A stretch of 45,574 bases of DNA from contig JAUSCY010000080.1 of the NCBI GenBank assembly GCA_030650995.1, positions 1-45,574 of the forward strand. Reading direction: 5' to 3'. The translations under genes were made by a program, and so were the position numbers. Positions 12,437-32,882 of the stretch are shown here, piece after piece. Source of the stretch: Sheuella sp. GTDB lineage: Bacteria; Pseudomonadota; Gammaproteobacteria; Burkholderiales; Burkholderiaceae_B. Positions within the stretch are counted from its first letter, which is position 1; each line of letters opens with the position of its first letter. Under the pieces are notes generated by a model, which was not told where the DNA came from, did not search any database, and saw only the letters and a list, made by a program, of their open reading frames with translations.

Positions 12437-12483
12437 GCAGGTGGGTAACATACCTTTGTAATAAATTTAAAGTTATACCCACT

Positions 12484-12523
12484 AAATGGATACCTGAAAT
12501 ATTTTCAGGTATCCATTTTTTTT
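12484..12523 (+). terminator. Strong intrinsic terminator
   Basis: A 16-bp perfect stem (AAATGGATACCTGAAA at 12484-12499 with TTTCAGGTATCCATTT at 12503-12518) has a 3-base loop and runs into an eight-T tract. It lies 48 bases after the receptor gene's stop and is the clearest terminator in the window. Confidence 0.93.
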
Positions 12524-12582
12524 AATTACACTGGGTCGTAGGGTCTGGAACTTATTGACCTTTGTATTTAAAAATTTAAAAT

Positions 12583-13407
12583 ATGAAAAAAACGATTCAA
12601 AATGTGCCTACCTTCAGGCAACATTTACAAAAAATTATCTTTGATTCGGATACCCCTGCCGGCAGGATGTTCGATAAAGTATTAATTACAGTGATTCTGT
12701 TATCACTTGTAATGGTCATTCTCGATAGCGTAGAGTCGATTTCTAAAAGATATTATTTTCAACTGTCCTTTTTAGAATGGGTTTTTACAGGTTTATTTAC
12801 ACTCGAATACGCAGCCAGAATTTATTGCTCACCACAAAGATTGCGTTATATCCGCAGCTTTTTTGGCATCGTCGATCTTCTGACTCTGATTCCTCTATAT
12901 TTTGCGATGCTTTTTCCAGAACTTCATTCGTTGATAGATGTAAGAGTACTCAGATTGATTCGTATATTTCGAATTTTCAAACTGACGGCTTATATTTCTG
13001 AATACACCCATCTAGCCAATGCTTTCAAGGCAAGCAGAAGAAAAATTCTTGTTTTTCTATCAATCGTATCGATGGTTGTACTCGTGATGGGGACACTCAT
13101 GTATGTCGTGGAGGGTCCTCAACACGGCTTTACCAGTATCCCCGTTGGAATTTACTGGGCTATTACTACGATGACTACGGTTGGTTATGGTGACATCACA
13201 CCCAAAACAGATCTGGGCAGACTGATCTCGTCTGTCATGATGTTAATGGGTTGGGGTACTTTAGCTGTGCCAACTGGAATTATGACCGCAGAGATGACGC
13301 AACTTTCACGCAAATCTAATTATAAAAAATGTACTTACTGTCACAGAGACAATCTAAATGAGTCTGATATTTACTGTGGCTCATGCGGAATGGATCAACG
13401 TAAGTAG
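12583..13407 (+). CDS. Voltage-gated-type potassium channel with C-terminal zinc ribbon
   Basis: A 274-residue inner-membrane protein with the six-segment ion_trans fold. S1 lies around 33-50, S2 around 62-80, S3 around 93-110, and S4 contains the regularly spaced arginines RVLRLIRIFRIF at 121-132. The pore carries the K+ selectivity filter TTVGYGD at 198-204. S6 spans about 213-238. The C-terminus holds two CxxC pairs (C250/C253 and C265/C268, separated by 11 residues), a probable zinc ribbon in the cytoplasm that replaces the usual tetramerisation or nucleotide-binding domain. It passes K+, with gating by voltage inferred from S4. It sits alone downstream of a terminator and is convergent with a KefB-type antiporter. 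Confidence 0.9.
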   Translation: MKKTIQNVPTFRQHLQKIIFDSDTPAGRMFDKVLITVILLSLVMVILDSVESISKRYYFQLSFLEWVFTGLFTLEYAARIYCSPQRLRYIRSFFGIVDLLTLIPLYFAMLFPELHSLIDVRVLRLIRIFRIFKLTAYISEYTHLANAFKASRRKILVFLSIVSMVVLVMGTLMYVVEGPQHGFTSIPVGIYWAITTMTTVGYGDITPKTDLGRLISSVMMLMGWGTLAVPTGIMTAEMTQLSRKSNYKKCTYCHRDNLNESDIYCGSCGMDQRK

Positions 13408-18200: not shown

Positions 18201-19763
18201 TTAAACCACGGGTGTGCGAATCAGATAATCAAATGCACTGAGTGCTGCCTTGGAGCCCTCGCCTGCAGCAATCACAATCTGTTTAAAAGGTACAGTTGTG
18301 CAATCACCTGCGGCAAATACACCTGGTACGTTTGTGTGGCCTTTGGCATCTACGACGATTTCACCAAACTTGGTTAAGTCCAGAGTTTCTTTGAGGAACT
18401 CCGTGTTCGGAACCAAACCAATTTGTACAAACACACCTGCGAGTTCCACATGGTGTTCCACACCCGTGGCGCGGTCTTTGAAGCTAATACCGTTGACTAT
18501 GCTGCCGTCACCTGTGATCTGCGTGGTTTGGGCATTTGTGTAGACGTCAACATTGGGCAAGCTGTTGAGCTTGTTAACCAATACCGCATCCGCCTTTAAC
18601 TGGTCTGCGAATTCAATCACTGTAACGTGTTCGACTACACCTGCCAGATCGATTGCCGCTTCAATACCTGAATTACCGCCACCAATCACTGCTGTACGCT
18701 TGCCTTTGAACAAAGGACCATCGCAGTGCGGGCAATAGGCTACGCCCTTGTTTTTATACTCCTGCTCTCCAGGAACATTCACGTTGCGCCAGCGTGCGCC
18801 CGTTGACAGGATCACAGTTCGTGCATTGAGTGTGCCGCCATTTTCCATCTGTACCTGAATCATTGCGCCCGGCGTTGAAGCAGGGATCACTTTGGTGGCA
18901 CGCTGAAGATTCATGATGTCAACACCATAATGACGCACTTGTGCTTCGAGAGCCGCGGCGAATTTAGGGCCGTCTGTTTCCAGGACAGAAATATAGTTTT
19001 CGATTGCCATCGTGTCATTTGTCTGGCCACCGAACCGCTCCGCGGCAACACCCACGCGAATACCTTTTCGCGCAGCGTAAATCGCAGCAGCAGCCCCTGC
19101 TGGACCACCGCCAACAATCAGCACATCAAAATCTTCTTTCGCATTGAGCTTTGCTGCTTCACGCGCACCTGCATTGATATCGAGCTTGGCAACAATTTCC
19201 TCGACATTCATGCGTCCTGAACCAAACACTTTGCCATTGAGAAAGACCATAGGTACGGCCATGATTTCGCGCTCGGTGACTTCTTTTTGAAAAGCACCAC
19301 CTTCGATCACGACTGTTTTAACCTTGGGGTTAAAGATTGCCATCAACGACAATGCCTGCACAACATCGGGACAGTTATGGCAAGACAAAGACATATAGAC
19401 CTCAAAATTGAAGTCGCCGTCCAGCGCTTTGATCGAGTCGATTATGTCTTGCTCGACTTTCGGAGGATGACCGCCGGTCCACAGCAATGCCAGCACCAGC
19501 GAAGTGAATTCGTGTCCAAGGGGCAATCCGGCAAAACGCACGCCCGTTGACTCGCCATCACGCGCAACCACAAAAGAGGGTTTGCGAATATCGTCGCCCG
19601 TCGTCTCGAGTGTGACCTTGTCCGAGAGCGCCACAATAGTCTCAAGCAGGTTACGCATCTCAGCGCCTGTCTCGCTATCGTCAAGTGAAGCGATCAGTCG
19701 GATTGGCTGGCGCAGCATGCCCAGATAAGTCTGTAATTGGGATTTGAGGGTGTCGTCGAGCAT
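18201..19763 (-). CDS. ahpF: Alkyl hydroperoxide reductase subunit F
   Basis: A 520-residue flavoprotein disulfide reductase that passes electrons from NADH through FAD and two CxxC pairs to AhpC. The N-terminal tandem thioredoxin-like domain carries C128-H-N-C131 (E. coli C129/C132). A FAD-binding [17 protein letters not shown] begins around residue 217, the active-site pair is in [10 protein letters not shown] near 340-350, an NAD-binding [15 protein letters not shown] follows, and the C-terminal GVFAAGDCT completes the fold. Length equals the E. coli protein (521). It lies downstream of ahpC in the same direction, separated by 163 bases that hold stem-loops, and converges on norR with 9 bases between the stops. 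Confidence 0.97.
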
Positions 19764-19850
19764 AGTTCTCTCCTGTTACGGGCAAAAATTTTCCACTACT
19801 GACAAAAACAGTCAGTCTGAATCGTTAAGTGTTGGGGGTTTGAGCTGAGG

Positions 19851-19913
19851 GTAAGGCACGTGGCTGTGTTCGACCGCCAGATGCCTTACGCTCAACGCCC
19901 TGCGTGTCAGGGC
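19851..19913 (-). promoter_or_regulatory. Stem-loops in the ahpC-ahpF spacer
   Basis: Two hairpins can form: GTAAGGCA (19851-19858) pairs with TGCCTTAC (19882-19889), extendable to 13 bp with one mismatch. GCCCTG (19897-19902) pairs with CAGGGC (19908-19913) over a 5-base loop. Neither has a T-tract in the direction of transcription. They may stabilise the ahpC message or partly attenuate ahpF, giving the usual AhpC excess; this is inference. Confidence 0.45.
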
Positions 19914-19926
19914 ATTAAAACTGGAT

Positions 19927-20490
19927 TTAGATCTTACCGACCAGATCCAGTGATGGAGTCAGAGTCTTTGAACCTTCGTTCCACTTAGCTGGGCACACTT
20001 CACCTGGGTGAGCAGCTGTGTACTGAGCAGCTTTTAGTTTACGTACGGTTTCCTTCACGTCGCGGGCAATTTCGTTTGAATGAATTTCGAGTGTTTTAAT
20101 CACGAGATCCGGATTGACGATAAATGTACCGCGCAGCGCCAGACCTTCCTCAGCGATATGCACGCCGAAAGCGTTAGTCAACGCATGTGTTGGGTCACCA
20201 ACCAATGGGAACTTAGCCTTGCCCACAGCTGGCGATGTCTCGTGCCAGACTTTGTGTGAAAAATGTGTATCTGTGGTGATGATGTAAACCTCAGCACCCA
20301 TTTTCTGGAATTCAGGGTAGTGTTCAGCTGCGTCTTCGATCTCTGTAGGGCAGTTGAAAGTGAACGCTGCAGGCATGAATATCAGAACCGACCACTTGCC
20401 TTTCAGGCTGGCTTCGGTAACTTCGATGAACTTGCCATTATGGAAAGCTTGGGCTTTGAAAGGCTGGACTTGTGTGTTGATCAGGGACAT
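19927..20490 (-). CDS. ahpC: Alkyl hydroperoxide reductase subunit C (2-Cys peroxiredoxin)
   Basis: A 187-residue cytoplasmic peroxiredoxin that reduces H2O2, organic peroxides and peroxynitrite. The peroxidatic cysteine is C47 in AAFTFNCPTEIED and the resolving cysteine is in HPGEVCPAKW near the C-terminus. Length equals E. coli AhpC. The ATG at 20490 has AAAGGAATCTTT upstream; the longer frame to 20526 adds unconserved residues. The MPAAFTFN variant before the cysteine, instead of YPADFTFV, is familiar from other betaproteobacterial AhpC proteins. ahpF follows downstream and supplies electrons. Next to the NorR operon it completes a nitrosative/oxidative defence block. Confidence 0.97.
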   Translation of the reverse strand: MSLINTQVQPFKAQAFHNGKFIEVTEASLKGKWSVLIFMPAAFTFNCPTEIEDAAEHYPEFQKMGAEVYIITTDTHFSHKVWHETSPAVGKAKFPLVGDPTHALTNAFGVHIAEEGLALRGTFIVNPDLVIKTLEIHSNEIARDVKETVRKLKAAQYTAAHPGEVCPAKWNEGSKTLTPSLDLVGKI

Positions 20491-20653
20491 AAAGATTCCT
20501 TTGTAGAGGGTTATTAGAAAAAACAATCGAATTGGTGAATTCGTTAGGCTCTATCATAATCGCACTGAGGAATTATGCTAATTGTTTGTTTTAATGATGT
20601 CGATTGTCCAAACCTATCTCCAGAAAAAATAAACCGATAAAAAAGGAAACCTA

Positions 20654-21649: not shown

Positions 21650-22636
21650 CTAGACCTGTCTCAAGTGACAAGCGACCATGCGTCCGGAGGGCATGATCGT
21701 TTGTCTGGGTTCCTGGACTTTACAAATGTCCATCACATCTGGGCAGCGCGTATGAAAATGGCAGCCACTAGGGCGGTTGACAGGGCTCGGCACATCACCC
21801 TGTAAAACGATCCGGTGGGCCTTCTTTTTGGGATCAGGTACAGGCACAGCGGATAGCAAAGCTGTTGTGTAGGGGTGTTGTGGATTTGAAAACAACTCTG
21901 TGCGATCGGCCAGCTCCACTATCCGGCCCAGATACATGACTGCAACGCGATGCGTCATGTGCTCAACAATCGCGAGGTCATGGCTGATAAACAGCAACGC
22001 CAGACCAAGTTCTTTTTGCAGATCCTGCAATAGGTTAACAATCTGTGCCTTAACCGATACGTCAAGCGCCGAAACTGCCTCGTCGCAAATAATCAAATCG
22101 GGCTCTGCAGCCAAGGCGCGCGCAATACAGATCCGCTGCCGCTGTCCGCCAGAGAACTCATGTGGCCAACGCTCACCAGCATCTTTAGGCAAACGCACTT
22201 TATCCAGCAACTGAACAACGCGAGCTTTGATTTGCTCTTGGTCAGATGCAAGACCAAAATTACGGATTGGTTCGGCAATAATATCGTGCACCCGCATGCG
22301 CGGATTCAAGCTCGAGAACGGGTCCTGAAAAATCACCTGAATACGTTTACGCAAGGGGCGCAGCGCGCTCGCAGACAAAGAGTCGATGCGCGTCCCGTCC
22401 AGTATCACTTCACCAGATGTCAGATCAAACAAACGCAGGATCGAACGACCCACAGTGGACTTACCACAACCAGACTCTCCGACCAGCGCAAGCGTCTCGC
22501 CTTTCTTGATAGAAAACGAAACACCATCGACTGCATGGACATGGCCCGTGACCTTACTAAAAATACCAGTCTTGATCGGAAAGAATTTTTGAATCTGACG
22601 GACTTCAAGTAGGGGGACGGAGGCGGACGTAGACAT
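21650..22636 (-). CDS. Oligopeptide/dipeptide ABC transporter ATPase (DppF/OppF type)
   Basis: A 328-residue ATPase. Walker A is GESGCGKST, the Q-loop lies in VIFQDPFSSLNPRM, the signature is FSGGQRQRICIARAL and Walker B LIICDEAVSALD, followed by the switch histidine in FISHD. The C-terminal oligopeptide-type extension with clustered cysteines and histidines (CHFHTRCPDVMDICK) identifies the peptide-transporter subfamily. The ATG at 22636 follows CAGGTTAACCGA, a good ribosome-binding site; longer frames begin with TTG or lack one. It is the last gene of the importer operon (receptor, permease, permease, ATPase, ATPase) on the minus strand. Confidence 0.94.
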   Translation of the reverse strand: MSTSASVPLLEVRQIQKFFPIKTGIFSKVTGHVHAVDGVSFSIKKGETLALVGESGCGKSTVGRSILRLFDLTSGEVILDGTRIDSLSASALRPLRKRIQVIFQDPFSSLNPRMRVHDIIAEPIRNFGLASDQEQIKARVVQLLDKVRLPKDAGERWPHEFSGGQRQRICIARALAAEPDLIICDEAVSALDVSVKAQIVNLLQDLQKELGLALLFISHDLAIVEHMTHRVAVMYLGRIVELADRTELFSNPQHPYTTALLSAVPVPDPKKKAHRIVLQGDVPSPVNRPSGCHFHTRCPDVMDICKVQEPRQTIMPSGRMVACHLRQV

Positions 22637-22672
22637 TCGGTTAACCTGATTCGAGTAAGTCATGAGCAAAGC

Positions 22673-23665
22673 TTAATCATTAGCAAAAGCAACTTCACCA
22701 GCAAAGTGGCAGGCCACCTGATGACCGGACTCTTTGATTTGCATGGCGGGTGCGATCTCATGACAAGGTTCTTTTGCCAACGGACAGCGTGATGCGAACA
22801 CGCAACCTGTGATCTTTTGTTTCAAGCTAGGTACCAGCCCGGGGATCTCTTTCAAGCGCGTAGAATGTCCCGCAGCCGATGTGCCAAGCTTGGGTACCGC
22901 GCCTAGCAAACCCTGCGTGTAGGGATGCAACGGGTTGGCAAACAACTCCTCCACTGGCGCCTCTTCGACCTTGCGTCCGGCATACATCACCATGACACGC
23001 TCAGCGACTTCGGCTACAACTCCCAGATCGTGCGTAATCAGTACGATGGCAGCTCCAATTTTATTTTTCAGGTCTGCCATCAGATCCAGAATCTGCGCCT
23101 GAATTGTGACGTCAAGCGCAGTAGTTGGTTCGTCAGCAATTAACAACTTCGGATTACAGGCAAGTGCCATCGCAATCATCACCCGTTGACGCATGCCTCC
23201 TGAGAGTTGATGCGGATATTCATTGAGCCGACGCTGACTTTCTGCAATACCGACCAAATCCATCAGCTCAAGGGCACGTGCCATGGCCTGATCCTTGGAG
23301 ATGTCTTGATGCAAGCGCAACGTCTCACACAACTGACGTTTGATTTTCAGCACCGGATTCAGACTTGTCATCGGCTCCTGAAAAATCATTGAAATCGCAT
23401 CACCACGAATAGCACGCATCTCTTTATCGGATAACTTGAGCAAATCCTTGCCCTGGAATTTTATAGAGCCTGCAATCTTGCCAGGTGGCTCGGGTATCAG
23501 GCGCAGGATAGACATTGCCGTCACGGACTTGCCGCAACCGGACTCCCCCACAATGGCAAGTGTTTCTCCCTCGTTCACGATAAAGCTCACACCATCCACG
23601 GCACGGTTGATTCCGTCCGGAGTACGAAAGTGTGTCTGAAGGTTTTCGACTTCTAATAAGGCCAA
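22673..23665 (-). CDS. Oligopeptide/dipeptide ABC transporter ATPase (DppD/OppD type), TTG start
   Basis: A 330-residue ATPase with Walker A GESGCGKSV, signature LSGGMRQRVMIAMAL, Walker B LLIADEPTTALD and the cysteine-bearing peptide-family C-terminus (CVFASRCPLAKEPCHE). The proposed start is TTG at 23665, with GGAG 7 bases upstream, giving the standard N-terminus ALLEVENLQTHF and only 13 bases from the preceding permease gene. An in-frame ATG at 23728 would overlap the permease by 50 bases and add 21 unrelated residues. It forms a heterodimer with the neighbouring DppF-type ATPase. Confidence 0.93.
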   Translation of the reverse strand: MALLEVENLQTHFRTPDGINRAVDGVSFIVNEGETLAIVGESGCGKSVTAMSILRLIPEPPGKIAGSIKFQGKDLLKLSDKEMRAIRGDAISMIFQEPMTSLNPVLKIKRQLCETLRLHQDISKDQAMARALELMDLVGIAESQRRLNEYPHQLSGGMRQRVMIAMALACNPKLLIADEPTTALDVTIQAQILDLMADLKNKIGAAIVLITHDLGVVAEVAERVMVMYAGRKVEEAPVEELFANPLHPYTQGLLGAVPKLGTSAAGHSTRLKEIPGLVPSLKQKITGCVFASRCPLAKEPCHEIAPAMQIKESGHQVACHFAGEVAFAND

Positions 23666-23678
23666 GAGATATCTCCGA

Positions 23679-24569
23679 TCAGCTCGATTTCGACTTGCGA
23701 GGATCCAGCACATCGCGGAAACCGTCACCCATCAGGTTGACAGCCAGCACAGTGAGAGACAAGAAAATAGCTGGAAAAAATATGATGTACGGCTTGATTT
23801 GGAACAAGGTCCGGCCATCGGCCATGATGTTGCCCCAAGAAGGGATGATTGGTGGCACGCCAGCACCAATAAACGACAAGATTGACTCGGTGATCATCGC
23901 AGAGGCACAAATATACGTCGCCTGCACGGTCAGCGGTGCGAGTGTATTGGGCAAGATATGCCGCCAGATCAGCATAGGCATGCGACAGCCACAAGATATC
24001 GCCGCATCAACATATGCCTGTTCACGCAGTGACAAAACAACGCCTCGGACCAGACGCGAAACGCGTGGAATCTCAGCAATCGTAATAGCAATTACAACGT
24101 TCTGGACACTCGCTCGCGTCAGCGCCATCAAGGCAATTGCTAACAAGATAGGTGGGATCGACATCAGGCCATCCATGACACGCATGATGATGGCATCCAG
24201 GCGTCGGAAAGTGCCCGAGAGCAGACCGATTGTCAGGCCAATCAGAGAGGCTAATAACGCAACGGCAAAACCGATCGTGAGCGATACCCGCGCACCATAC
24301 AAGACACGCGAATAAATATCGCGGCCAAACGCATCTGTACCAAACCAGTAAAGCGCAGAAGGTTCAAGATTGCGCTTGCGCGGTGCAAGCTCGGTTGGAT
24401 CGACCGTACCTAGCCAGGGGGCCGCAACCGCTATGAACAGCATCACGAGCAGCAGACCGGCGCCGAAGGCGATCGTCGGATTGTTGAGTAGGAAACCCCA
24501 TAAGCCTTTACGTTGGCGTCGTGGTTTAAGCAGATCAGGTAGTGAAGGCGCAGCAGCAAAAGTATTCAT
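23679..24569 (-). CDS. Peptide-type ABC transporter permease (DppC/OppC type)
   Basis: A 296-residue inner-membrane permease. The N-terminal LKPRRQRKGLWGFLLNNPT precedes TM1, as in OppC/DppC. YWFGTDAFGRDIYSRVLYGA is the family's periplasmic OppC_N signature, and the EAA loop is in VDAAISCGCRMPMLIWRHIL. Five or six membrane segments are visible. Its ATG overlaps the stop of the preceding permease gene by one base (TGATG), indicating translational coupling. Partners are the DppB-type permease and two ATPases in the same operon. Confidence 0.94.
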   Translation of the reverse strand: MNTFAAAPSLPDLLKPRRQRKGLWGFLLNNPTIAFGAGLLLVMLFIAVAAPWLGTVDPTELAPRKRNLEPSALYWFGTDAFGRDIYSRVLYGARVSLTIGFAVALLASLIGLTIGLLSGTFRRLDAIIMRVMDGLMSIPPILLAIALMALTRASVQNVVIAITIAEIPRVSRLVRGVVLSLREQAYVDAAISCGCRMPMLIWRHILPNTLAPLTVQATYICASAMITESILSFIGAGVPPIIPSWGNIMADGRTLFQIKPYIIFFPAIFLSLTVLAVNLMGDGFRDVLDPRKSKSS

Positions 24570-25510
24570 CAGTAACGTATCCTAGGATCGACGATCGTAT
24601 AGATCACGTCAACGCACAGATTAACCAGCACATATACAAAACTAAATACCACCACCAGCCCCTGGATAAGCGGATAGTCGCGACGCACAATCGCATCAAT
24701 CGTCAATCGTCCCAAACCAGGAATCGCGAAGACGCTCTCTGTCACCACCGCACCGCCGATCAGTAAGGCGATACCAATACCAATCACCGTGACAACTGGA
24801 ACCGCAGCATTTTTTAATGCATGCAGAAACAAGATACCTATTTGCCCCATACCCTTTGCTTTCGCCGTCCGGATGTAATCCTGCGACAACACCTCAAGCA
24901 TGGTGGCACGGGTGATGCGAGCGATCAATGCAATATAAACAAAGCCAAGAGCAATCGATGGCAGCACAAGGTGCTCAAACCATTGACCAATGTCTTTCTT
25001 AAACGAAACATAGCCCTGTACTGGAAACCAGTCCAGTTCAAGAGAAAGAAAAAAACTCATCAGATATCCGACTACAAATACCGGAACAGAAAAACCAATG
25101 ACCGAGATAGCCATGATGCTGCGGTCAATCCAGGTACCCGCCTTCCAGGCTGCTAAAACACCGATAGGAACGGCTACAGTGATCGCAATCACCAACGTCA
25201 GCACCATCAAAGATAGTGTCGGCTCGACTCGCTGTCCAATCAACTCAATGACTGGCATACCCGTGAACATTGAGGTTCCCAAATCTCCCTGCAGGAGATT
25301 AAAAAACCACTCTGAAAATCTGACAAGAAACGGACGGTCCAGTCCCAGATTGGCGCGAATTTTTTCAACGTCCGCCGGACTAGCCTGATCGCCAGCAATG
25401 ACCGCGGCGGGATCGCCCGGAGCAATATAAAGCAAGCTAAATACAAACAGGGCAACAATCAACATGACCGGTATGGTGGCCAGTACCCTGCGAAAAATAT
25501 AACTAAACAT
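24569..25510 (-). CDS. Peptide-type ABC transporter permease (DppB/OppB type)
   Basis: A 313-residue inner-membrane permease beginning MFSYIFRRVLATIPVMLIVA, typical of OppB/DppB, with GDPAAVIAG and LGLDRPFLVRFSEWF in the first periplasmic loop. The EAA motif lies in DYIRTAKAKGMGQIGILFLH, and the end GLVVVFSFVYVLVNLCVDVI is the usual last membrane segment. It follows the receptor gene by 106 bases in the same direction and overlaps the second permease. It helps form the import channel for the receptor's ligand. Confidence 0.94.
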   Translation of the reverse strand: MFSYIFRRVLATIPVMLIVALFVFSLLYIAPGDPAAVIAGDQASPADVEKIRANLGLDRPFLVRFSEWFFNLLQGDLGTSMFTGMPVIELIGQRVEPTLSLMVLTLVIAITVAVPIGVLAAWKAGTWIDRSIMAISVIGFSVPVFVVGYLMSFFLSLELDWFPVQGYVSFKKDIGQWFEHLVLPSIALGFVYIALIARITRATMLEVLSQDYIRTAKAKGMGQIGILFLHALKNAAVPVVTVIGIGIALLIGGAVVTESVFAIPGLGRLTIDAIVRRDYPLIQGLVVVFSFVYVLVNLCVDVIYTIVDPRIRY

Positions 25511-25616
25511 AGTGATCGATATTCCGTACTTCTAGATTGGGGCCGAAACGGCAATGGATCAAAGAGACCAGCCCACTCAGACGAACGGGGCCGGTCTCAA
25601 TCCTATCAAACCAGAG

Positions 25617-27218
25617 TTAGGTTTTTTTCACACCACTAAACCATGGCAGAGGGCCGCCAGCGATACCAGTGACGTTCTTGCGCCAAGCTTGATGCAATAA
25701 GAAAAAGCCTGTGGGAATGTATTCAACATCTTCCATTGCAGACTTGTTAATAGCAGCAATCGCAGTTTTCTCAGCTTCCAGTGTTGAGGCATCAAACCAC
25801 TCACCAACGCCTTTTTCGACTACAGGATTAGTCGGCCAGCCAAACCACGCCTTGTCACCGTTGGCGCGCACGCCTACGTTGCCCGCAATGGTTGCACAGT
25901 CCGCACCGGAGTGCCATGTGTGGAACATGCTCCAGCCACCTTGACCGGGTTCGTTTTTGGAGGCACGACGTTGTCCCACAGTACCCCAGTCAGTTGCCAC
26001 AAAATCAACGTTCATTCCCAAACGTTTAAGTACGTCGGCAGTAATTTCGCCTTGCGCCTTGGTAATTGAGTTGTCCTGCGCCACGATACATGTCACGGGC
26101 TCGCCCTTATAACCGGATGCAGCAAGCAGCTTTTTAGCGGCTTCCAATTGCGGGCCATTCTTCAGAACCTCGCCACCATTCTCTGTTGAGAAAGGTGTTC
26201 CGGGAGTAAAGAAACTGGGCAGCGGCTTCCACAAGTTAGTGTCAGAACCCGCAACTGCGCGCATGTAGTCTTCCTGACTGATCGCCATCTGAACAGCCTG
26301 GCGCACTTTCACGTTGTTAAAAGGTGCGTGCAGGTGATTCATACGAAATGAGCCGATGTTACCCAGCGGATCGGCGATTTCGACAACGATATTTCGGTTT
26401 TTCTTAAGTAGCGGTACCAGATCCGGCAGTGGCGACTCCCACCAGTCAACCTCGCCATTCTGCAATGCGGCAGATGCGGTTGCTGGATCAGGCATGACGA
26501 TCCACTCAATCCTGTCGAAATTAATGGCTTTGCTACCAGACATCCAGCTAGGCGCTTCGCTGCGCGGGTTATAGCCGTCAAATCGCTCAAAAACCGCCAG
26601 TGCACCTGGTTTCCATTCCTTTCGGGCGAAACGCATTGGTCCCGAGCCAACATACTCTTCGATCTGTTTGAAAGGATCGGTCTTGGCAATCCGCTCTGGC
26701 ATGATGAAACAGCAGGGCGTACCGGCCTTACCCAAAGCGAGCAGCATCTTTGGATAGGGTTTAGAGATTACCCATTTGAAGGTCGTGTCATTGACAGCCA
26801 CCAGTTCTTGCTGGATTGCCTTGAGCATCAGCCCCATCGGATCTCGTGCTGACCAACGAGTAATACTGGCCACGCAATCGACAGCGCGCACAGGCTCACC
26901 GTCATGGAATTTCATTCCAGGACGAAGCTTGAAAGTCCAAGTCAACCCATCAGGCGACATTTCTTCACTTTCAATCATCTGACGCTGTGGCTTTAACTTG
27001 TCATCGATCCCATACAAAGTATCCCAGACAAGTTGTGAAGCATTGCGAACAACGTACTGCGAGCCCCAAATTGGATCAAAATTCGCCAAATTCGCCTGAG
27101 GCACGAACCTCAGCACACGTGAGGAAGACTGCGAAAATGCTGGTGTACCAATCATGCCCGTAGCTGCCAAACCCAAGCCAGCCGCGCCCTTCAGTAAATC
27201 ACGTCGATTAAGATTCAT
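25617..27218 (-). CDS. Peptide-type ABC transporter receptor (DppA/OppA family), probable Tat substrate
   Basis: A 533-residue periplasmic receptor of the SBP_bac_5 family. The leader MNLNRRDLLKGAAGLGLAAT carries a twin-arginine motif (RRDLLK) before a modest hydrophobic core ending AFSQ, so Tat export is likely. Family motifs include NFDPIWGSQYVVRNASQLVW and the DGLTWTFKLRPGMKFHDG segment. Members bind dipeptides, opines, glutathione or modified amino acids. The divergent enzyme genes (deacylase, diaminopropionate ammonia-lyase, two carbamoylase-type hydrolases) suggest a ligand that is an N-acyl or N-carbamoyl amino acid. It is the first gene of the importer operon; about 200 bases of shared promoter region separate it from the deacylase gene. 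Confidence 0.93.
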   Translation of the reverse strand: MNLNRRDLLKGAAGLGLAATGMIGTPAFSQSSSRVLRFVPQANLANFDPIWGSQYVVRNASQLVWDTLYGIDDKLKPQRQMIESEEMSPDGLTWTFKLRPGMKFHDGEPVRAVDCVASITRWSARDPMGLMLKAIQQELVAVNDTTFKWVISKPYPKMLLALGKAGTPCCFIMPERIAKTDPFKQIEEYVGSGPMRFARKEWKPGALAVFERFDGYNPRSEAPSWMSGSKAINFDRIEWIVMPDPATASAALQNGEVDWWESPLPDLVPLLKKNRNIVVEIADPLGNIGSFRMNHLHAPFNNVKVRQAVQMAISQEDYMRAVAGSDTNLWKPLPSFFTPGTPFSTENGGEVLKNGPQLEAAKKLLAASGYKGEPVTCIVAQDNSITKAQGEITADVLKRLGMNVDFVATDWGTVGQRRASKNEPGQGGWSMFHTWHSGADCATIAGNVGVRANGDKAWFGWPTNPVVEKGVGEWFDASTLEAEKTAIAAINKSAMEDVEYIPTGFFLLHQAWRKNVTGIAGGPLPWFSGVKKT

Positions 27219-27415
27219 ATAAGACTCCAGATAAATTGAAATGTCTAATACCTATGAAAGCAATTACCGTGCCATTTCCAAAGCAAATACGGAACATCCA
27301 AGAGTGAATCGCGTGACACCACTCCAAAAACAAAACCAACAATCATAAAAAATCAGTGAATAAGTTACAACCTTGTACCATAATGGTTCAACTTACAACA
27401 CTGAGTTTATCCCCC

Positions 27416-28846
27416 ATGAAATGTGATCTCCTTCTGAAGAACGGCGTGGTCATTGACGGTACGGGTAATCCCCGATACCGTGCAGATGTGGCTATTCACA
27501 ACGGCAAAATCAGTGCGGTTGGTCTAAACCTCCAGGTTCAGGCCGCTACTGTTGTTGATGTCGCAGGTGCAACAATTTCGCCTGGCTTCATTGATGTGCA
27601 TACACACGATGACCGTCTGGTGCTAGCTGATCCATCCATGCAACCCAAGGTCAGTCAGGGCGCAACTACGGTGATCACAGGTAACTGTGGCATCAGTCTG
27701 GCACCACTTGGACGCACCATTCCAGTGCCTCCGCTCAATCTTGTTGCAGACGACTCGGCGCAGCGGTTTGAATCTTTTCGGGAATATTTTGACGCGCTTG
27801 AGAAAACACCCTCAGCTATGAATGTCGCATCGCTCGCCGGACACACCACAATGCGTGCAGTCACGATGCAGGAATTAGATCGTCCGGCTAACGCGTCTGA
27901 AATCGCTCAGATGCAAAAGCTCGTTCAAGAAGCCTTAGATGCAGGTGTAGTGGGTGTTTCAACCGGCCTTTACTATGCACCCGCACAGGCGGCTACTGCA
28001 GAAGAAATTCAAGCTGTTTTCGAACCACTACGCGGCACCACTGCAGTGATTGCCTCACATATTCGCAATGAAGCCGAACAAGTCCTCGAAGCAATGACCG
28101 AAGCAATGTCTATTGCCAATGCGCTCGGCGTTCGCCAGGTCATTTCCCATCACAAGGTCAATGGTCGCGCGAACCACGGTCGCTCTGTGGAAACACTCGC
28201 TCTCATTGATGAGGCGAGCACACGTGGTGATGTGTGTATGGATTGTTATCCTTATGTCGCCTCATCAACTGTATTGCGCCAAGACGCCGTTGAGCAGGCC
28301 GCCCGCACACTGATCGCATGGTCAACCGCGAAGCCCGAGACCGCAGGACGTTATGTCGATGAGCTGCTCACAGAGCAAAATCTGGACTTAACCGAATACC
28401 TGGCCTCACTTCAACCCGCAGGGGCCATTTATTTTTCAATGGACGAAGCCGACGTTGAACGCATCATGGCGCATCCAGAAACAATGATCGGATCAGATGG
28501 TCTGCCACACGACACCTTTCCACACCCTCGTTTGTGGGGTGCTTTCCCGCGTGTGCTGGGACACTACACGCGCGATCGCAAGATTTTCTCTCTTGAAACT
28601 GCGATACACAAAATGACCGGCATGCCCGCCTCAAAATTTGGTCTGAAAGATCGTGGTGTCATCGCGCCCGGCTTTGCAGCGGACTTGGTCGTTTTTGACC
28701 CCGAACAGGTTCGAGACTGTGCGACCTTTACCGATCCTAAACGACCTGCTGCAGGCATCCAGCGTGTTTATGTCAATGGTATAGCGAGTTGGCGCAATGG
28801 TGCCTCAACAGGCGCACGTGCAGGACAAGTATTACGCCGGTCATGA
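27416..28846 (+). CDS. N-acyl-D-amino-acid deacylase (D-aminoacylase)
   Basis: A 476-residue amidohydrolase-superfamily enzyme that removes the acyl group from N-acyl-D-amino acids. The HxH metal motif is in GFIDVHTHDDRLVL, the family's metal-binding cysteine in ITGNCGISLAP, with HIRNEAEQVLEAMTEAM, VISHHKVNG and IGSDGLPHDTFPHPRLWG further on. The ATG at 27416 gives the usual N-terminus MKCDLLLKNGVVIDGTG and typical length (about 480). Longer in-frame starts at 27356 (GTG) and 27383 exist without better ribosome-binding sites. It opens the plus-strand enzyme operon, followed by diaminopropionate ammonia-lyase 43 bases later. Confidence 0.92.
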   Translation: MKCDLLLKNGVVIDGTGNPRYRADVAIHNGKISAVGLNLQVQAATVVDVAGATISPGFIDVHTHDDRLVLADPSMQPKVSQGATTVITGNCGISLAPLGRTIPVPPLNLVADDSAQRFESFREYFDALEKTPSAMNVASLAGHTTMRAVTMQELDRPANASEIAQMQKLVQEALDAGVVGVSTGLYYAPAQAATAEEIQAVFEPLRGTTAVIASHIRNEAEQVLEAMTEAMSIANALGVRQVISHHKVNGRANHGRSVETLALIDEASTRGDVCMDCYPYVASSTVLRQDAVEQAARTLIAWSTAKPETAGRYVDELLTEQNLDLTEYLASLQPAGAIYFSMDEADVERIMAHPETMIGSDGLPHDTFPHPRLWGAFPRVLGHYTRDRKIFSLETAIHKMTGMPASKFGLKDRGVIAPGFAADLVVFDPEQVRDCATFTDPKRPAAGIQRVYVNGIASWRNGASTGARAGQVLRRS

Positions 28847-28889
28847 GTTCATTCTCATCCATGCATTTTTTTCAGGTTGAAGTTTCACA

Positions 28890-30119
28890 ATGAATGCTCA
28901 AATACTACATGGCGATGGAATCGCCCTCTACACCAACCCGATTGGCTGTGATGCCACAGAGGACTACGGCCAGTTCAGGGCAGCGATCCTGCATGAACAA
29001 GGATTTGATGCTGCTGAAAAAGAAATCTCTGGCTGGCCTGGCTATTCAAGCACGGCACTCCACACATTGCCTAACCTCGCCAGGAAGCTCGGTATCTCTG
29101 CCCTCTACTACAAAGACGAGAGCACACGCTTTGGCTTGAAGAGCTTCAAAGCACTGGGTGGTGCGTATGCAGTATTTCGCCTGATCCAGAAAGCAGTCGC
29201 TCTACAACACAACGGTCATTTACCCTCCCCTCAGGAAATATTATCCGGCCGATACGCCGACATCATTTCCAAAATGACAGTGACCTGCGCCACAGATGGC
29301 AACCATGGCCGCTCAGTTGCGTGGGGTGCGCAACTGTTTGGTTGCCGTTGCGTGATTTACATTCATGCTACGGTCAGTGAAGGCCGTCGCGCAGCTATCG
29401 CGTTTTATGGAGCCGAGGTGATTCGAGTCCAAGGTAATTACGATGACTCTGTACATCACGCAGCATCAGAGGCTGCTAAAAACGGCTGGACAGTTGTTTC
29501 GGACACGACCTACGAAGGCTATCGCGATATACCGATCGATGTCATGCACGGCTACGGTGTGATGTCCAGAGAGATTGTTAAACAACTCCACGATGCTCCC
29601 CCCACGCATGTACTTGTGCAGGCAGGTGTGGGTGCCCTTGCAGCGTCAGTCTGTGCAACGTTCTGGCAGAAATGGGGCGCAGCGCGTCCCAAGTTCATCA
29701 TCATAGAACCCGAGCATGCGGATTGTTTTTTCCAGAGCGGACAAGTCGGGCATCCAGTGATAGTCACGGGTGATCTGGAGACCGTCATGGCGGGCCTTGC
29801 CTGCGGTGAAGTCTCTCCTGTTGCCTGGGATATTTTGAAAAGTGGCATTGACTGCTACGCAACGCTCGCTGACAAGTTCGCACTCGAAGGCATGCGCGTG
29901 CTGGCCAACCCCATAGGCGATGACCCAAAGATTGTCTCTGGCGAAACAGGCAGCACAGGACTCGGTTTATTGATGGCCGCACACGAAAATACAGTAGCGT
30001 GGAATACGCTGGGCTTAGGTCCAGAGTCACGCGTACTGATGATTGGCAGTGAAGGCGACACGGATCCGACTATTTATAAACAAGTCGTGGGGCGCACAGC
30101 AGAAGAAGTATTGGCTTAA
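28890..30119 (+). CDS. dpaL: Diaminopropionate ammonia-lyase
   Basis: A 409-residue fold-type II PLP enzyme that converts D- and L-2,3-diaminopropionate to pyruvate and two ammonia; the family also acts on D-serine. The PLP lysine is K87 in RFGLKSFKALGGAYAV, and TCATDGNHGRSVAWGA, YEGYRDIPIDVMHGYG and the glycine-rich SGETGSTGLG are characteristic of YgeX/DpaL rather than of threonine deaminase. Length matches E. coli YgeX (398). The following gene, an M20 hydrolase, starts 14 bases after the stop. In E. coli ygeX also neighbours an M20 peptidase gene (ygeY), which supports a functional link. Confidence 0.94.
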   Translation: MNAQILHGDGIALYTNPIGCDATEDYGQFRAAILHEQGFDAAEKEISGWPGYSSTALHTLPNLARKLGISALYYKDESTRFGLKSFKALGGAYAVFRLIQKAVALQHNGHLPSPQEILSGRYADIISKMTVTCATDGNHGRSVAWGAQLFGCRCVIYIHATVSEGRRAAIAFYGAEVIRVQGNYDDSVHHAASEAAKNGWTVVSDTTYEGYRDIPIDVMHGYGVMSREIVKQLHDAPPTHVLVQAGVGALAASVCATFWQKWGAARPKFIIIEPEHADCFFQSGQVGHPVIVTGDLETVMAGLACGEVSPVAWDILKSGIDCYATLADKFALEGMRVLANPIGDDPKIVSGETGSTGLGLLMAAHENTVAWNTLGLGPESRVLMIGSEGDTDPTIYKQVVGRTAEEVLA

Positions 30120-30133
30120 CAGGTATAGAGGTC

Positions 30134-31366
30134 ATGACCACACAACACTCAATTAATGGATCACGTTTATTACGTCAGCTCAACACGCTTGCTGACATCG
30201 GACGCACAGACACCAACGCATGCTGTCGGCTTGCCCTCACAGATGAAGATAAGCAAGGCAGAGACCTGATCGTGCGCTGGATGAAAGAGCTTGGCATGGA
30301 GATCAGCATTGATCCAATTGGCAATATTTTTGGCGTACGCGCAGGCTCACGCCCAGAGCTCGCGCCTGTAATGACCGGCTCACACATCGATACAGTTCGC
30401 ACCGGTGGCGCCTATGACGGCAATTACGGCGTGCTGGGAGGACTTGAGGTTGTCGCCACACTAAACGACGCACAACACACGACTGAGCGCTCGCTCGTAG
30501 TGGGAGTCTTCACAAACGAAGAAGGTGCGCGCTTCGCACCTGACATGCTGGGCTCACTCGTTTACGTGGGCGGCATGACAATCGAAGACGCACTGAACGT
30601 CAAAGCAATCGATGGTGCCGTGCTCGGTGACGAACTCAAACGAATCGGTTACTACGGCAACTCAGCGCTTGGGATACACAAGCCCCACGCATTTGTCGAA
30701 CTCCACATCGAACAAGGTCCTTTACTTGATATCGAGGGCATCAAGATCGGTGCGGTCGAAAATCTTCAGGGTATTTCCTGGCAGGAGCTCACAATCGTGG
30801 GCCAGTCTAACCATGCGGGTACCACCCCGATGTACCTGCGCCATGATGCGGGCTACGCGGCAAGTGCTATCTCACACTTTGTGCGCGAACTCACACGCAG
30901 TATGGGCGGCAATCAAGTGGGGACCGTTGGTCATGTTGTGCTCACTCCAAATCTGATCAATGTGATCGCTGCCCGCGCGACAATCACTGTCGATCTGCGC
31001 AACACAGATGAAGCATTATTACAGCAAGCCGAGCGTGCGCTCAATGATTTTCTTAAATCCCTCGCTGAATCAGAAGGTGTCACCATCACCTCGCGTCAGT
31101 TGGCGCGCTTTGAACCTGTCACGTTTGACGCAGCACTTGCCGACCGCATCGCGTACCATGCAGGAAACATGAACCTCTCGCACCGGCGGATGACCTCAGG
31201 TGCCGGACATGATGCACAAATGCTGGCACGCATCTGTCCGACGGCAATGATTTTTGTACCGAGCGTAGGTGGCATCAGTCACAACCCAGCCGAGCACACA
31301 GACCCTGCTGATCTGATTGCTGGTGCTAATGTACTGCTCGCCACACTCACTGAACTTGCTCACTAG
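30134..31366 (+). CDS. M20-family Zn hydrolase (hydantoinase/N-carbamoyl-amino-acid hydrolase type)
   Basis: A 410-residue dinuclear-metal amidohydrolase of the M20C group, which contains allantoate amidohydrolase, beta-ureidopropionase and L-carbamoylase. Ligand motifs are TGSHIDTV, GGAYDGNYGVLGGLEV, FTNEEGARF, ELHIEQGPLL and, near the C-terminus, SGAGHDAQMLA and SHNPAEHTDP; QSNHAGTTPMYLRHD is the dimerisation/substrate segment. The family hydrolyses a ureido or amide group to release ammonia, CO2 and an amine. GAGGTC precedes the ATG. Placed between diaminopropionate ammonia-lyase and D-carbamoylase, it probably deacylates or decarbamoylates a precursor of diaminopropionate; exact substrate unknown. 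Confidence 0.92.
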   Translation: MTTQHSINGSRLLRQLNTLADIGRTDTNACCRLALTDEDKQGRDLIVRWMKELGMEISIDPIGNIFGVRAGSRPELAPVMTGSHIDTVRTGGAYDGNYGVLGGLEVVATLNDAQHTTERSLVVGVFTNEEGARFAPDMLGSLVYVGGMTIEDALNVKAIDGAVLGDELKRIGYYGNSALGIHKPHAFVELHIEQGPLLDIEGIKIGAVENLQGISWQELTIVGQSNHAGTTPMYLRHDAGYAASAISHFVRELTRSMGGNQVGTVGHVVLTPNLINVIAARATITVDLRNTDEALLQQAERALNDFLKSLAESEGVTITSRQLARFEPVTFDAALADRIAYHAGNMNLSHRRMTSGAGHDAQMLARICPTAMIFVPSVGGISHNPAEHTDPADLIAGANVLLATLTELAH

Positions 31367-31378
31367 GAGTCCTTATTC

Positions 31379-32314
31379 ATGACACGTATCGTGACCGTCG
31401 GCGCCGCACAACTCGGCCCGATTCAACGCGCGCATACCCGCAAAGAAGTTGTCGCCCGACTGATCGCTTTGCTCGAGCAAGGTGCTCGGCACGGTTGTGA
31501 TTTAGTCGTTTTCCCAGAGCTTGCGCTGACGACTTTTTTCCCGCGCTGGTATTTTGAGTCTCAGCAAGAAATCGATAGTTTTTTCGAAACGCAGATGCCT
31601 GGACCAGATACACAAGCCTTGTTCGATGCGGCAATCAAGCTCAAAACAGGCTTTTATCTTGGCTATGCAGAAATCACCGAGGAAGAAGGTCGTACCCGCA
31701 GGTTCAATACCTCGATACTGGTCGATCAATCGGGTGCGATTGTGGGTAAATATCGTAAGGTGCACCTGCCTGGCCATGCTGAGCACGAGCCATGGCGTCA
31801 GTTTCAGCATCTCGAAAAGCGCTACTTTGAAACTGGCAATCTCGGCTTTCCAGTTTTCAGGGCCTTTGGCGGCATTATTGGTATGGCCGTATGTAACGAC
31901 CGTCGCTGGCCCGAAACCTATCGCGTCATGGGCTTGCAAGGCGTTGAAATGATTTTGATCGGCTACAACACGCCAGTACATAATCCGCCCGCACCAGAGC
32001 ATGACAATCTCTCGCACTTTCATAACGAGTTGGTAATGCAAGCTGGTGCCTATCAAAATGCCACCTGGATCGTTGGTGTTGGCAAGGGCGGACGCGAAGA
32101 AGGCGTTGATCAGATTGGGAATTCGATCATTGTTGCCCCCTCTGGCGAGATTATTGGCGCCTGCAGCACGCTCGGAGACGAGTTGGCGATTGCACGCTGC
32201 GATCTTGACCTAACCTTGTCATACAAAAACTCTGTGTTTAATTTTGCCAAGCATAGAGAACCCCATGCCTACAGCATGATTGTCGAGCGTAAGGGTGCGA
32301 TTATCAAGGTGTAG
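31379..32314 (+). CDS. N-carbamoyl-D-amino-acid hydrolase (D-carbamoylase)
   Basis: A 311-residue nitrilase-superfamily enzyme. The catalytic triad falls at the same residue numbers as in the Agrobacterium D-carbamoylase: E47 (FPELALTTFFPRW), K127 (GKYRKVHLPGH) and C172 (AVCNDRRWPETYR). Other shared blocks are RRFNTSILVD, FQHLEKRYFE and GYNTPVHNPP. The reaction hydrolyses N-carbamoyl-D-amino acids to the D-amino acid, CO2 and ammonia. AGGAGT lies 7 bases before the ATG and only 12 bases separate it from the M20 hydrolase gene, so it is the fourth gene of the operon. A hydantoinase, its usual partner, is not encoded in the window. Confidence 0.95.
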   Translation: MTRIVTVGAAQLGPIQRAHTRKEVVARLIALLEQGARHGCDLVVFPELALTTFFPRWYFESQQEIDSFFETQMPGPDTQALFDAAIKLKTGFYLGYAEITEEEGRTRRFNTSILVDQSGAIVGKYRKVHLPGHAEHEPWRQFQHLEKRYFETGNLGFPVFRAFGGIIGMAVCNDRRWPETYRVMGLQGVEMILIGYNTPVHNPPAPEHDNLSHFHNELVMQAGAYQNATWIVGVGKGGREEGVDQIGNSIIVAPSGEIIGACSTLGDELAIARCDLDLTLSYKNSVFNFAKHREPHAYSMIVERKGAIIKV

Positions 32315-32390: not shown

Positions 32391-32882
32391 ATGAGCGCAA
32401 AATCAATTGTGTCAAAGATCGATATTGGTATTAATGATAAAGATCGCAAAGCGATTACAAAGGGTCTTTCCGGCTTATTGGCGGATAGCTATTCTTTATA
32501 TTTAATGACGCACAATTTTCACTGGAACGTGACAGGGCCGCAATTCAATACCCTGCACACCATGTTCATGGCTCAATACACCGAGCAATGGGCTGCACTC
32601 GATCTGATTGCAGAGCGGATTCGTGCCCTGGGTGAATATGCTCCCGGCACCTATAAGGAATTTGCAAAGCTCACCTCCATCCAGGAAGTATCCGGGACGC
32701 CCAAGGCAATGGAAATGGTCCAGCTGCTCATCAATGCGCAAGAAGCAACTGCACGAACCGCTCGCAAACTTTTTCCCTTAGTTGAAAAAGCGAAAGATCA
32801 ACCGACAGCGGACTTACTTACACAACGACTCAATGTTCACGAAAAAACAGCATGGATGTTGAGAAGCCTGTTGGAAAGTTAA
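32391..32882 (+). CDS. dps: Dps-family DNA-protecting ferritin-like protein
   Basis: A 163-residue ferritin-like protein that forms dodecamers, oxidises and stores iron with H2O2, and protects DNA in starvation or oxidative stress. The ferroxidase ligands lie in LYLMTHNFHWNVTGPQF (His of HNFHWN) and in EQWAALDLIAERIRALGEYAPG (D and E of the partner subunit). The short N-terminus holds several lysines (KSIVSKIDIGINDKDRK). GGAGAGACTG precedes the ATG. A small perfect hairpin (CAGCGAT-ATAA-ATCGCTG, 32901-32918) follows the gene. It fits the other stress genes of the window but is not linked to them in an operon. Confidence 0.93.
   Translation: MSAKSIVSKIDIGINDKDRKAITKGLSGLLADSYSLYLMTHNFHWNVTGPQFNTLHTMFMAQYTEQWAALDLIAERIRALGEYAPGTYKEFAKLTSIQEVSGTPKAMEMVQLLINAQEATARTARKLFPLVEKAKDQPTADLLTQRLNVHEKTAWMLRSLLES

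Follow-up and report, generated by a model that had tools for sequence, protein, structure and literature searches.

Diaminopropionate ammonia-lyase (DpaL; YgeX in E. coli) carries out the last step of the reductive urate pathway, published in 2025 for E. coli and C. difficile (PMC12507026). There, ureidomethylhydantoin is converted to 2,3-diureidopropionate by HyuA, to albizziin by YgeW or UacY, to 2,3-diaminopropionate (DAP) by YgeY and finally to pyruvate by YgeX. Together, E. coli YgeY and YgeX convert albizziin to pyruvate; the UacY protein of C. difficile, which is homologous to D-aminoacylases, acts with HyuA to take ureidomethylhydantoin to albizziin. A commentary (PMC12990295) states that in another study the 3-ureido group goes first, gives the R configuration as proposed, and leaves open the order in which the two ureido groups come off. 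An R configuration would suit both a D-carbamoylase and a D-aminoacylase. Here we describe a divergent gene island in a 45,574-nucleotide stretch of DNA (the window; contig C27) of Sheuella sp., a freshwater bacterium close to Zwartia (Alcaligenaceae) whose assembly comprises 3.13 Mb in 151 contigs and is 91% complete. A five-gene Opp/Dpp-type importer runs leftwards and four enzyme genes, DpaL among them, run rightwards. The island is real, coherent and conserved, and we infer, with the chances evenly balanced, that it serves to break down N-blocked DAP, most likely D-series compounds.

The island resembles the reductive urate pathway in its DpaL/YgeX end reaction, in an M20-fold enzyme and in a D-aminoacylase, a homologue of which (UacY) takes part in C. 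difficile, and differs from it by an M20C amidase in place of YgeY, an extra D-carbamoylase and an Opp importer. With D-hydantoinase/D-carbamoylase hydantoin utilisation it shares the D-carbamoylase family and catalytic triad, and a dihydropyrimidinase is present in the Rhizobium version of the locus; unlike that system, the window operon contains DpaL, and the carbamoylase loop after N197-T198 differs. The M20C family includes the N-carbamoyl-beta-alanine amidohydrolase of the reductive pyrimidine pathway, whereas the island has no dihydropyrimidinase and its product would pass to DpaL. According to a review on beta-N-methylamino-L-alanine (BMAA), some cyanobacteria have DAP lyase genes; passages of PMC6754898 and PMC4809877 hold a bare mention only.

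No paper describing the pathway of the island was found in the open-licence PubMed Central full texts, which is not proof of absence; in the same collection no literature on a carbamoylase with diaminopropionate was found, and no title named a bacterial pathway for albizziine degradation. An earlier note on this DNA knew of no described pathway with exactly this set of enzymes. This is literally true, yet the 2025 urate pathway combines DpaL with an M20 enzyme and a homologue of D-aminoacylase. The tail of the reductive urate pathway is known; new here is the proposed hydrolytic, importer-fed variant from the environment, which has a D-carbamoylase subfamily to itself.

Gene content and catalytic residues of the island

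The open reading frames (ORFs) lie exactly as the earlier note had described them, in coordinates, strands, gene order and 12-43 bp spacing, the genes of the enzyme operon being separated by 43, 14 and 12 bp. The features are as follows.

21650..22669, minus strand: OppF/DppF-type ATPase of the importer (PRK11308, 388.9 bits, below the cut-off of 408)
22673..23665, minus strand: OppD/DppD-type ATPase (PRK09473, 380 bits, below the cut-off of 575)
23679..24569, minus strand: OppC-type permease (Opp4C, 255.6 bits, below the cut-off of 350)
24569..25510, minus strand: OppB-type permease (Opp2B, 319 bits, below the cut-off of 350)
25617..27218, minus strand: family-5 solute-binding protein (SBP; SBP_bac_5, 225.5 bits; 8vdx, 391 bits)
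27219..27415, no strand: divergent intergenic region of 197 bp between importer and enzyme operon
27416..28846, plus strand: D-aminoacylase (Amidohydro_3; 1m7j, 524 bits, with alignment)
28890..30119, plus strand: diaminopropionate ammonia-lyase, DpaL (PRK08206; residues aligned with E. coli YgeX)
30134..31366, plus strand: M20C hydantoinase/carbamoylase-family amidase (TIGR01879; residues)
31379..32314, plus strand: N-carbamoyl-D-amino-acid hydrolase, the D-carbamoylase, of nitrilase fold (similarity, residues, loop)

The window DpaL passes the NCBIfam model PRK08206 (513.7 bits, cut-off 276) and falls short of the stricter equivalog TIGR03528 (371 bits, cut-off 532). It is 43% identical to YgeX over 357 residues, with K87, D136 and D205 aligned to K77, D120 and D189 of the E. 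coli enzyme. The lysine is found in 91 of 91 rows of the DpaL alignment and each of the two aspartates in 89; we take the former to be the pyridoxal phosphate lysine and the latter to be the catalytic aspartates. The M20C amidase passes TIGR01879 (411 bits, cut-off 204), matches the N-carbamoyl-beta-alanine amidohydrolase 8c46 (330 bits), and carries H84, D95, E129/E130, H191, H227, N276, R289 and H383, presumably the catalytic positions. Its match to YgeY extends over only 57 residues.

The closest solved relatives of the D-carbamoylase are N-carbamoyl-D-amino-acid hydrolases (426 bits). The residues E47, K127 and C172, an intact triad according to the earlier note, are indeed present together with R175/R176; we assume the former to be the catalytic triad and the arginines to be functional as well. 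The protein is predicted to be a D-specific carbamoylase. The D-aminoacylase has 1m7j/1rjp as its best relatives (524 bits), and H62, H64, C91, H215, H245, D361 and R372, aligned with 1m7j, are presumed to be its metal and substrate residues. For the OppD-type gene, a TTG start at 23665 matches the family; the longer ORF call begins at 23728.

The island is flanked on one side by genes for a peroxiredoxin and an AhpF-like disulphide reductase (window 18201-20526) and on the other by a ferritin-like (Dps-type) gene (32391-32882).

Conservation of the DpaL neighbourhood

DpaL is present in 28 of the 32 genomes of the genus, the window's own included, and was not found in G012, G013, G020 and G022. 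Within 5 kb of these 28 genes an M20C amidase is found in 26 loci, a D-carbamoylase in 20 and a D-aminoacylase in 23; in L065, L071 and L073 the D-aminoacylase is present more than 5 kb away. In seven of the eight loci without D-carbamoylase the contig ends on the side in question after no more than 1.6 kb, and the eighth (L074) lacks it despite 9 kb on either side, its DpaL being only 49% identical. Where the contig extends far enough, DpaL in the genus almost always has these partners. Among named organisms, the island locus is closest to those of Zwartia panacis (L035, DpaL 86% identical) and Zwartia vadi (L038, 85%), both of which carry the island. In L072 the D-carbamoylase match is split across two frames (12392-13329).

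Two architectures occur in the genus. The window's type has the divergent importer followed by D-aminoacylase, DpaL, M20C and carbamoylase, while in the second the D-aminoacylase is divergent and the importer either lies between it and DpaL (L065, L071, L073) or is not seen nearby. The SBP of these three loci is only 45-46% identical to that of the window. In 9 of the 28 genus loci, the window not being one of them, DpaL has an ArgE-family deacylase (family scanned in L061) as its neighbour towards the D-aminoacylase.

Outside the genus, samples of the class (369 genomes, E<=1e-60; 12 other genomes matching), the phylum (398 genomes, E<=1e-90; 27 other genomes with 30 loci) and the order (399 genomes, E<=1e-90; 12 others, 8 of them new genomes) gave 50 DpaL loci. 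An M20C neighbour, scored at a minimum of 200 bits within 5 kb of DpaL, is found in 22 of the 50, a D-carbamoylase within the same distance in 9, and both in 7. Both DpaL genes of L150, about 1.5 kb apart with an M20C gene between them, are counted among the 22 though they share one M20C. Elsewhere DpaL is partnered by an M24 peptidase or an M20 aminoacylase, or lacks all the genes looked for.

The gene triad of DpaL, M20C and D-carbamoylase recurs in rearranged form. In another family of the order, L171 and L172 have a D-aminoacylase divergent from SBP-OppBCDF-DpaL-M20C-carbamoylase, and L173 has the order RpiR-DpaL-M20C-carbamoylase-SBP-OppBCDF; in a genome of another class, a stretch of about 19 kb carries the complete enzyme set together with two Opp systems (L126 with L241). 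The gene triad occurs with tripartite ATP-independent periplasmic (TRAP) transporters in L082, L128 and L129, and on plasmids of Cupriavidus (L161, L181, L182) and of Rhizobium (L155, L156), the latter with a Pot-type ATP-binding cassette (ABC) importer. The plasmids of Rhizobium daejeonense and Rhizobium sp. ACO-34A carry DpaL-M20C-carbamoylase and, in divergent orientation, an RpiR regulator, the Pot-type importer and a dihydropyrimidinase; the two are near-identical in this stretch and count as one observation. A YgeY-family hydrolase (cut-off 321 bits) lies downstream of the gene triad in Cupriavidus oxalaticus (L161, 393 bits), C. necator N-1 (L182, 381 bits) and L174, from the window's family (356 bits). 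In L161 a major facilitator superfamily transporter, identified by scanning the intervening ORF, stands between the two.

No D-aminoacylase was found in the stretches examined of the TRAP, Cupriavidus and Rhizobium versions, and this enzyme is not part of the conserved core. The earlier note would have been refuted if the four enzymes were not found together elsewhere; they do recur, in L171, L172, L126/L241 and in the genus. The enzymes thus make up a conserved unit, with DpaL-M20C-carbamoylase as its core; the importer is swapped (TRAP, Pot-type ABC) and the D-aminoacylase lies outside the core. In a DpaL tree of 84 rows, duplicates included, made by a quick method, the window falls in a firm group of 10 rows bearing the gene triad.

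In the Rhizobium sp. ACO-34A locus (L156 13369-17465), genes annotated as aldehyde dehydrogenase, (2Fe-2S) protein and aldehyde dehydrogenase follow the gene triad on the opposite strand; by their size and order they perhaps encode a molybdenum hydroxylase. An M24 (Xaa-Pro peptidase family) gene stands beside DpaL in 12 of the 42 class and phylum loci (L083, L084, L086, L088, L090-L092, L132-L136), sometimes with an M20 aminoacylase. This pairing resembles ectoine-hydrolase/deacetylase pairs and may serve the deblocking of cyclic or acylated DAP. The second common context combines DpaL with M20C and an M20 aminoacylase (L137-L139, L143, L144, L148, L150, L151, L154, L176-L178).

The D-carbamoylase signature and the importer

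The window D-carbamoylase has W139 and, directly after N197-T198, the loop 201-HNPPAPEHD-209, as do the DpaL-linked members of its family. In an alignment of 54 sequences, H201 and H208 are present in 19 of 19 DpaL-linked enzymes and W139, P203 and P204 each in 18 of 19, while among the hydantoinase-linked enzymes each signature residue occurs in 1 of 20, always L244. Linkage in the first set was defined by DpaL or a hydantoinase within 8 kb, L155 (beside both DpaL and dihydropyrimidinase) being counted as DpaL-linked; the 20 carbamoylase rows added later, L241 included, were labelled by hand. The 19 DpaL-linked rows are 18 within 8 kb of DpaL and L241 at about 10 kb. Tree and signature exclude 20 near-identical or duplicate rows of the 54 in the first set, and the motif was scored outside those. 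The genus also has a hydantoinase-linked D-carbamoylase paralogue without the motif (L179, from the window's own assembly, and L180); on contig C9 the paralogue stands beside a partial hydantoinase cut by the contig end. The ORFs that make up or adjoin the island include no hydantoinase. An ordinary hydantoin operon is rejected on these grounds: the operon has no hydantoinase, and a separate paralogous pair lies on contig C9.

Other D-carbamoylase neighbourhoods were also seen. In Neorhizobium sp. NCHU2750 (L200 1-10566), which is without DpaL, a peptide-type ABC importer, dihydropyrimidinase, D-carbamoylase, M20C, isochorismatase and a divergent D-aminoacylase lie together, and L251 has a matching D-aminoacylase, isochorismatase, carbamoylase and hydantoinase. 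In four Rhizobiales loci (L160, L192, L194, L195) the D-carbamoylase is accompanied by an XRE regulator, an adenine-deaminase-C-terminal protein and an alanine racemase; all but one of these loci have an ABC importer immediately upstream.

Among the NCBIfam matches listed (for the ATPases, the best 25), no importer gene passes the cut-off of a named Opp, Dpp, Gsi or Nik model, so that the ligand is not readable from the family. The twin-arginine translocation (TAT) signal match of the SBP is weak (PF10518, 21.7 bits, just under the cut-off of 22.7). Six loci outside the genus hold an SBP of at least 66% identity (L145, L240, L245, L262, L263, L264), with a D-carbamoylase within about 5 kb in three and 8.6 kb away in one. 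The relative is accompanied by carbamoylase, amidase and M20C in L145, where DpaL is present, and in L240, without DpaL; it adjoins a hydantoinase and a D-carbamoylase in L245 and an amidohydrolase in L262. In L263 the genes in front of it, identified by scanning this locus, encode a TonB siderophore receptor and a PepSY protein, and L264 has the same gene layout. Of more distant relatives, one from Roseomonas (55%) adjoins an (S)-ureidoglycine aminohydrolase; no carbamoylase is annotated near those of Sagittula (52%) and Methylobacterium (47%). N-carbamoyl or ureide ligands are plausible for the importer.

The proposed pathway and its rivals

In the proposed pathway, the Opp/Dpp-type importer would bring in a ureido (or acyl) DAP derivative, from which the D-carbamoylase would take off the alpha (2-) carbamoyl group. 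The 3-carbamoyl group would fall to the M20C amidase, whose family also includes beta-ureidopropionase and L-carbamoylase. The D-aminoacylase would deal with an N-acyl-D or 2-ureido-D form, and DpaL would yield pyruvate and ammonia from DAP of either configuration. As substrate, 2,3-diureidopropionate or albizziin would be the most economical choice; the module would then correspond to the final three steps of the reductive urate pathway, hydrolases standing in for YgeW and YgeY. Catabolism of 3-ureidoalanine (albizziin) had been suggested by the earlier note and fits the biochemistry of YgeY/YgeX and UacY in PMC12507026. The chemistry of DpaL/YgeX, UacY and YgeY is drawn from the literature; from the observed gene content, catalytic residues, association and carbamoylase signature we infer the substrate, the order of steps and the importer ligand.

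Several lines of evidence argue for ureido-DAP, the published chemistry (PMC12507026) among them. DpaL is associated with M20C and the carbamoylase inside and outside the genus, the four enzymes and Opp recur in another family of the order and in a genome of another class, and the gene triad is kept while importers are swapped. The dihydropyrimidinase of the Rhizobium version and the YgeY-family hydrolase of L161, L182 and L174, each beside the gene triad, are counted as a ureido link. The H201/H208 loop and the separate hydantoinase-linked paralogue in the genus point to specialisation of the carbamoylase. A wider proposal, which we advance tentatively as possible rather than probable, is that DpaL, M20C and a distinct D-carbamoylase subfamily (W139, GYNTPxHxPPxPxHD loop) would constitute a widespread, purely hydrolytic D-2,3-diureidopropionate/albizziin pathway in Pseudomonadota unable to reduce urate. 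It would be an undescribed environmental sink for ureido-DAP supplied through several importer types and, in Rhizobium, also by the action of a dihydropyrimidinase that opens ureidomethylhydantoin or 5-ureidodihydrouracil.

A number of observations weigh against the ureido-DAP pathway. Outside the genus, 43 of the 50 DpaL loci are without the M20C and carbamoylase pair within 5 kb, and a few of these lie at contig ends; DpaL is a hub joined to differing deblocking enzymes, the window's kind being one among several. Other DpaL proteins of the gene triad fall elsewhere in the tree and are not united in a single clade; the set may therefore have come together on more than one occasion. The H..H loop is also present in six of six solitary copies, L240 and L193, and marks a subfamily, not strictly DpaL linkage. 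A clade of DpaL-linked D-carbamoylases was indicated by the first tree (26 DpaL rows and one other; support 83/90, below the 95/80 mark). The split was broken by adding a sample recruited with the carbamoylase rather than with DpaL, the wider group of 36 rows comprising 19 DpaL-linked, 6 alone, 5 hydantoinase-linked, 5 other and 1 further. The idea of a separate clade is weakened accordingly, while the loop signature holds. The M20C tree has 44 rows, with only two hydantoinase-linked controls.

Similarly, the importer is not tied to DpaL, its relatives of at least 66% identity being found also with a hydantoinase and D-carbamoylase or with a TonB siderophore receptor; these mixed contexts of the six SBP loci weaken the idea that it is specific for DAP derivatives. 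As to YgeY, no match was found in the remaining Cupriavidus locus (L181), and the YgeY-family protein from Cupriavidus shares only 30% identity with its E. coli namesake and falls short of a second model for the family, TIGR03526 (219 against 321.5 bits). SsnA is above cut-off in none of the 32 genus genomes, with weaker related amidohydrolases in 31 (best 148 against 455.5 bits) and one of 14 control genomes above it; YgeY is above the PRK13004 cut-off in none of the 32, with weaker matches in 29. Among the DpaL loci compared there is no ygfK, ygfM, ssnA or ygeW match at E<=1e-20, one weak 27% match to xdhD (L152) and one 43% match to yqeA (L092); no XdhD, YgfK or YgeW was seen in the window stretch examined. 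An island for urate reduction is ruled out by the genus having no SsnA or YgeY above cut-off.

The rival that survives best is a general salvage island for N-carbamoyl- or N-acyl-D-amino acids, derived from hydantoin-type or racemised peptide products, in which deamination by a promiscuous DpaL would be just one outlet, for example for products resembling D-serine. In its favour, importer, D-carbamoylase, M20C, D-aminoacylase and dihydropyrimidinase stand together without DpaL in the Neorhizobium locus L200; the window-like importer beside hydantoinase and D-carbamoylase in L245, and a Pantoea D-carbamoylase (L197) whose neighbours are an ABC importer and a D-amino-acid transaminase, agree with it. 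We nevertheless consider it rather unlikely, given the loop signature of the DpaL-linked carbamoylase and the separate hydantoinase-linked paralogue in the genus, the M20C gene adjoining DpaL in 22 of the 50 loci outside the genus, and the catalytic residues for DAP in DpaL.

Salvage of N-acyl-DAP, from siderophore or peptide fragments or from plant N-acyl or N-oxalyl DAP, appears improbable. In this case the D-aminoacylase and, in relatives, the ArgE-type deacylase would act on DAP, and the carbamoylases on other caps. It draws on the D-aminoacylase in the operon, the ArgE-family gene beside DpaL in 9 of 28 genus loci (family confirmed in L061), the pairing of M20C with an M20 aminoacylase at other DpaL loci, and the importer relative beside a TonB siderophore receptor in L263, with L264 alike in layout. 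However, it is the carbamoylase that is kept in the TRAP, Rhizobium and Cupriavidus stretches examined, where no D-aminoacylase was found. The beta-N-acyl and N-oxalyl forms of DAP named as substrates in the earlier note have the enzyme classes as their sole support.

That unrelated genes were joined by chance or gene transfer with no shared pathway, as the differing importers of the two genus architectures (SBP 45-46% identical) and the scattered DpaL of the gene triad might suggest, is highly improbable and already disfavoured: the association is repeated in several families with order rearranged and importers swapped, and at E<=1e-15 the whole assembly (91% complete) has just two matches each for M20C and for D-carbamoylase, one of each adjoining DpaL, so that chance adjacency, ruled out by the conserved association within and outside the genus, is not a serious option.

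Should the ureido-DAP pathway prove correct, ureido-diaminopropionates would be an environmental nutrient, beyond their part as intermediates of anaerobic urate breakdown in the gut, and DpaL would gain a physiological role in organisms without urate reduction. The carbamoylase signature is usable as a marker to find the pathway and to pick enzymes, and the enzymes of the island could help settle which ureido group leaves first.

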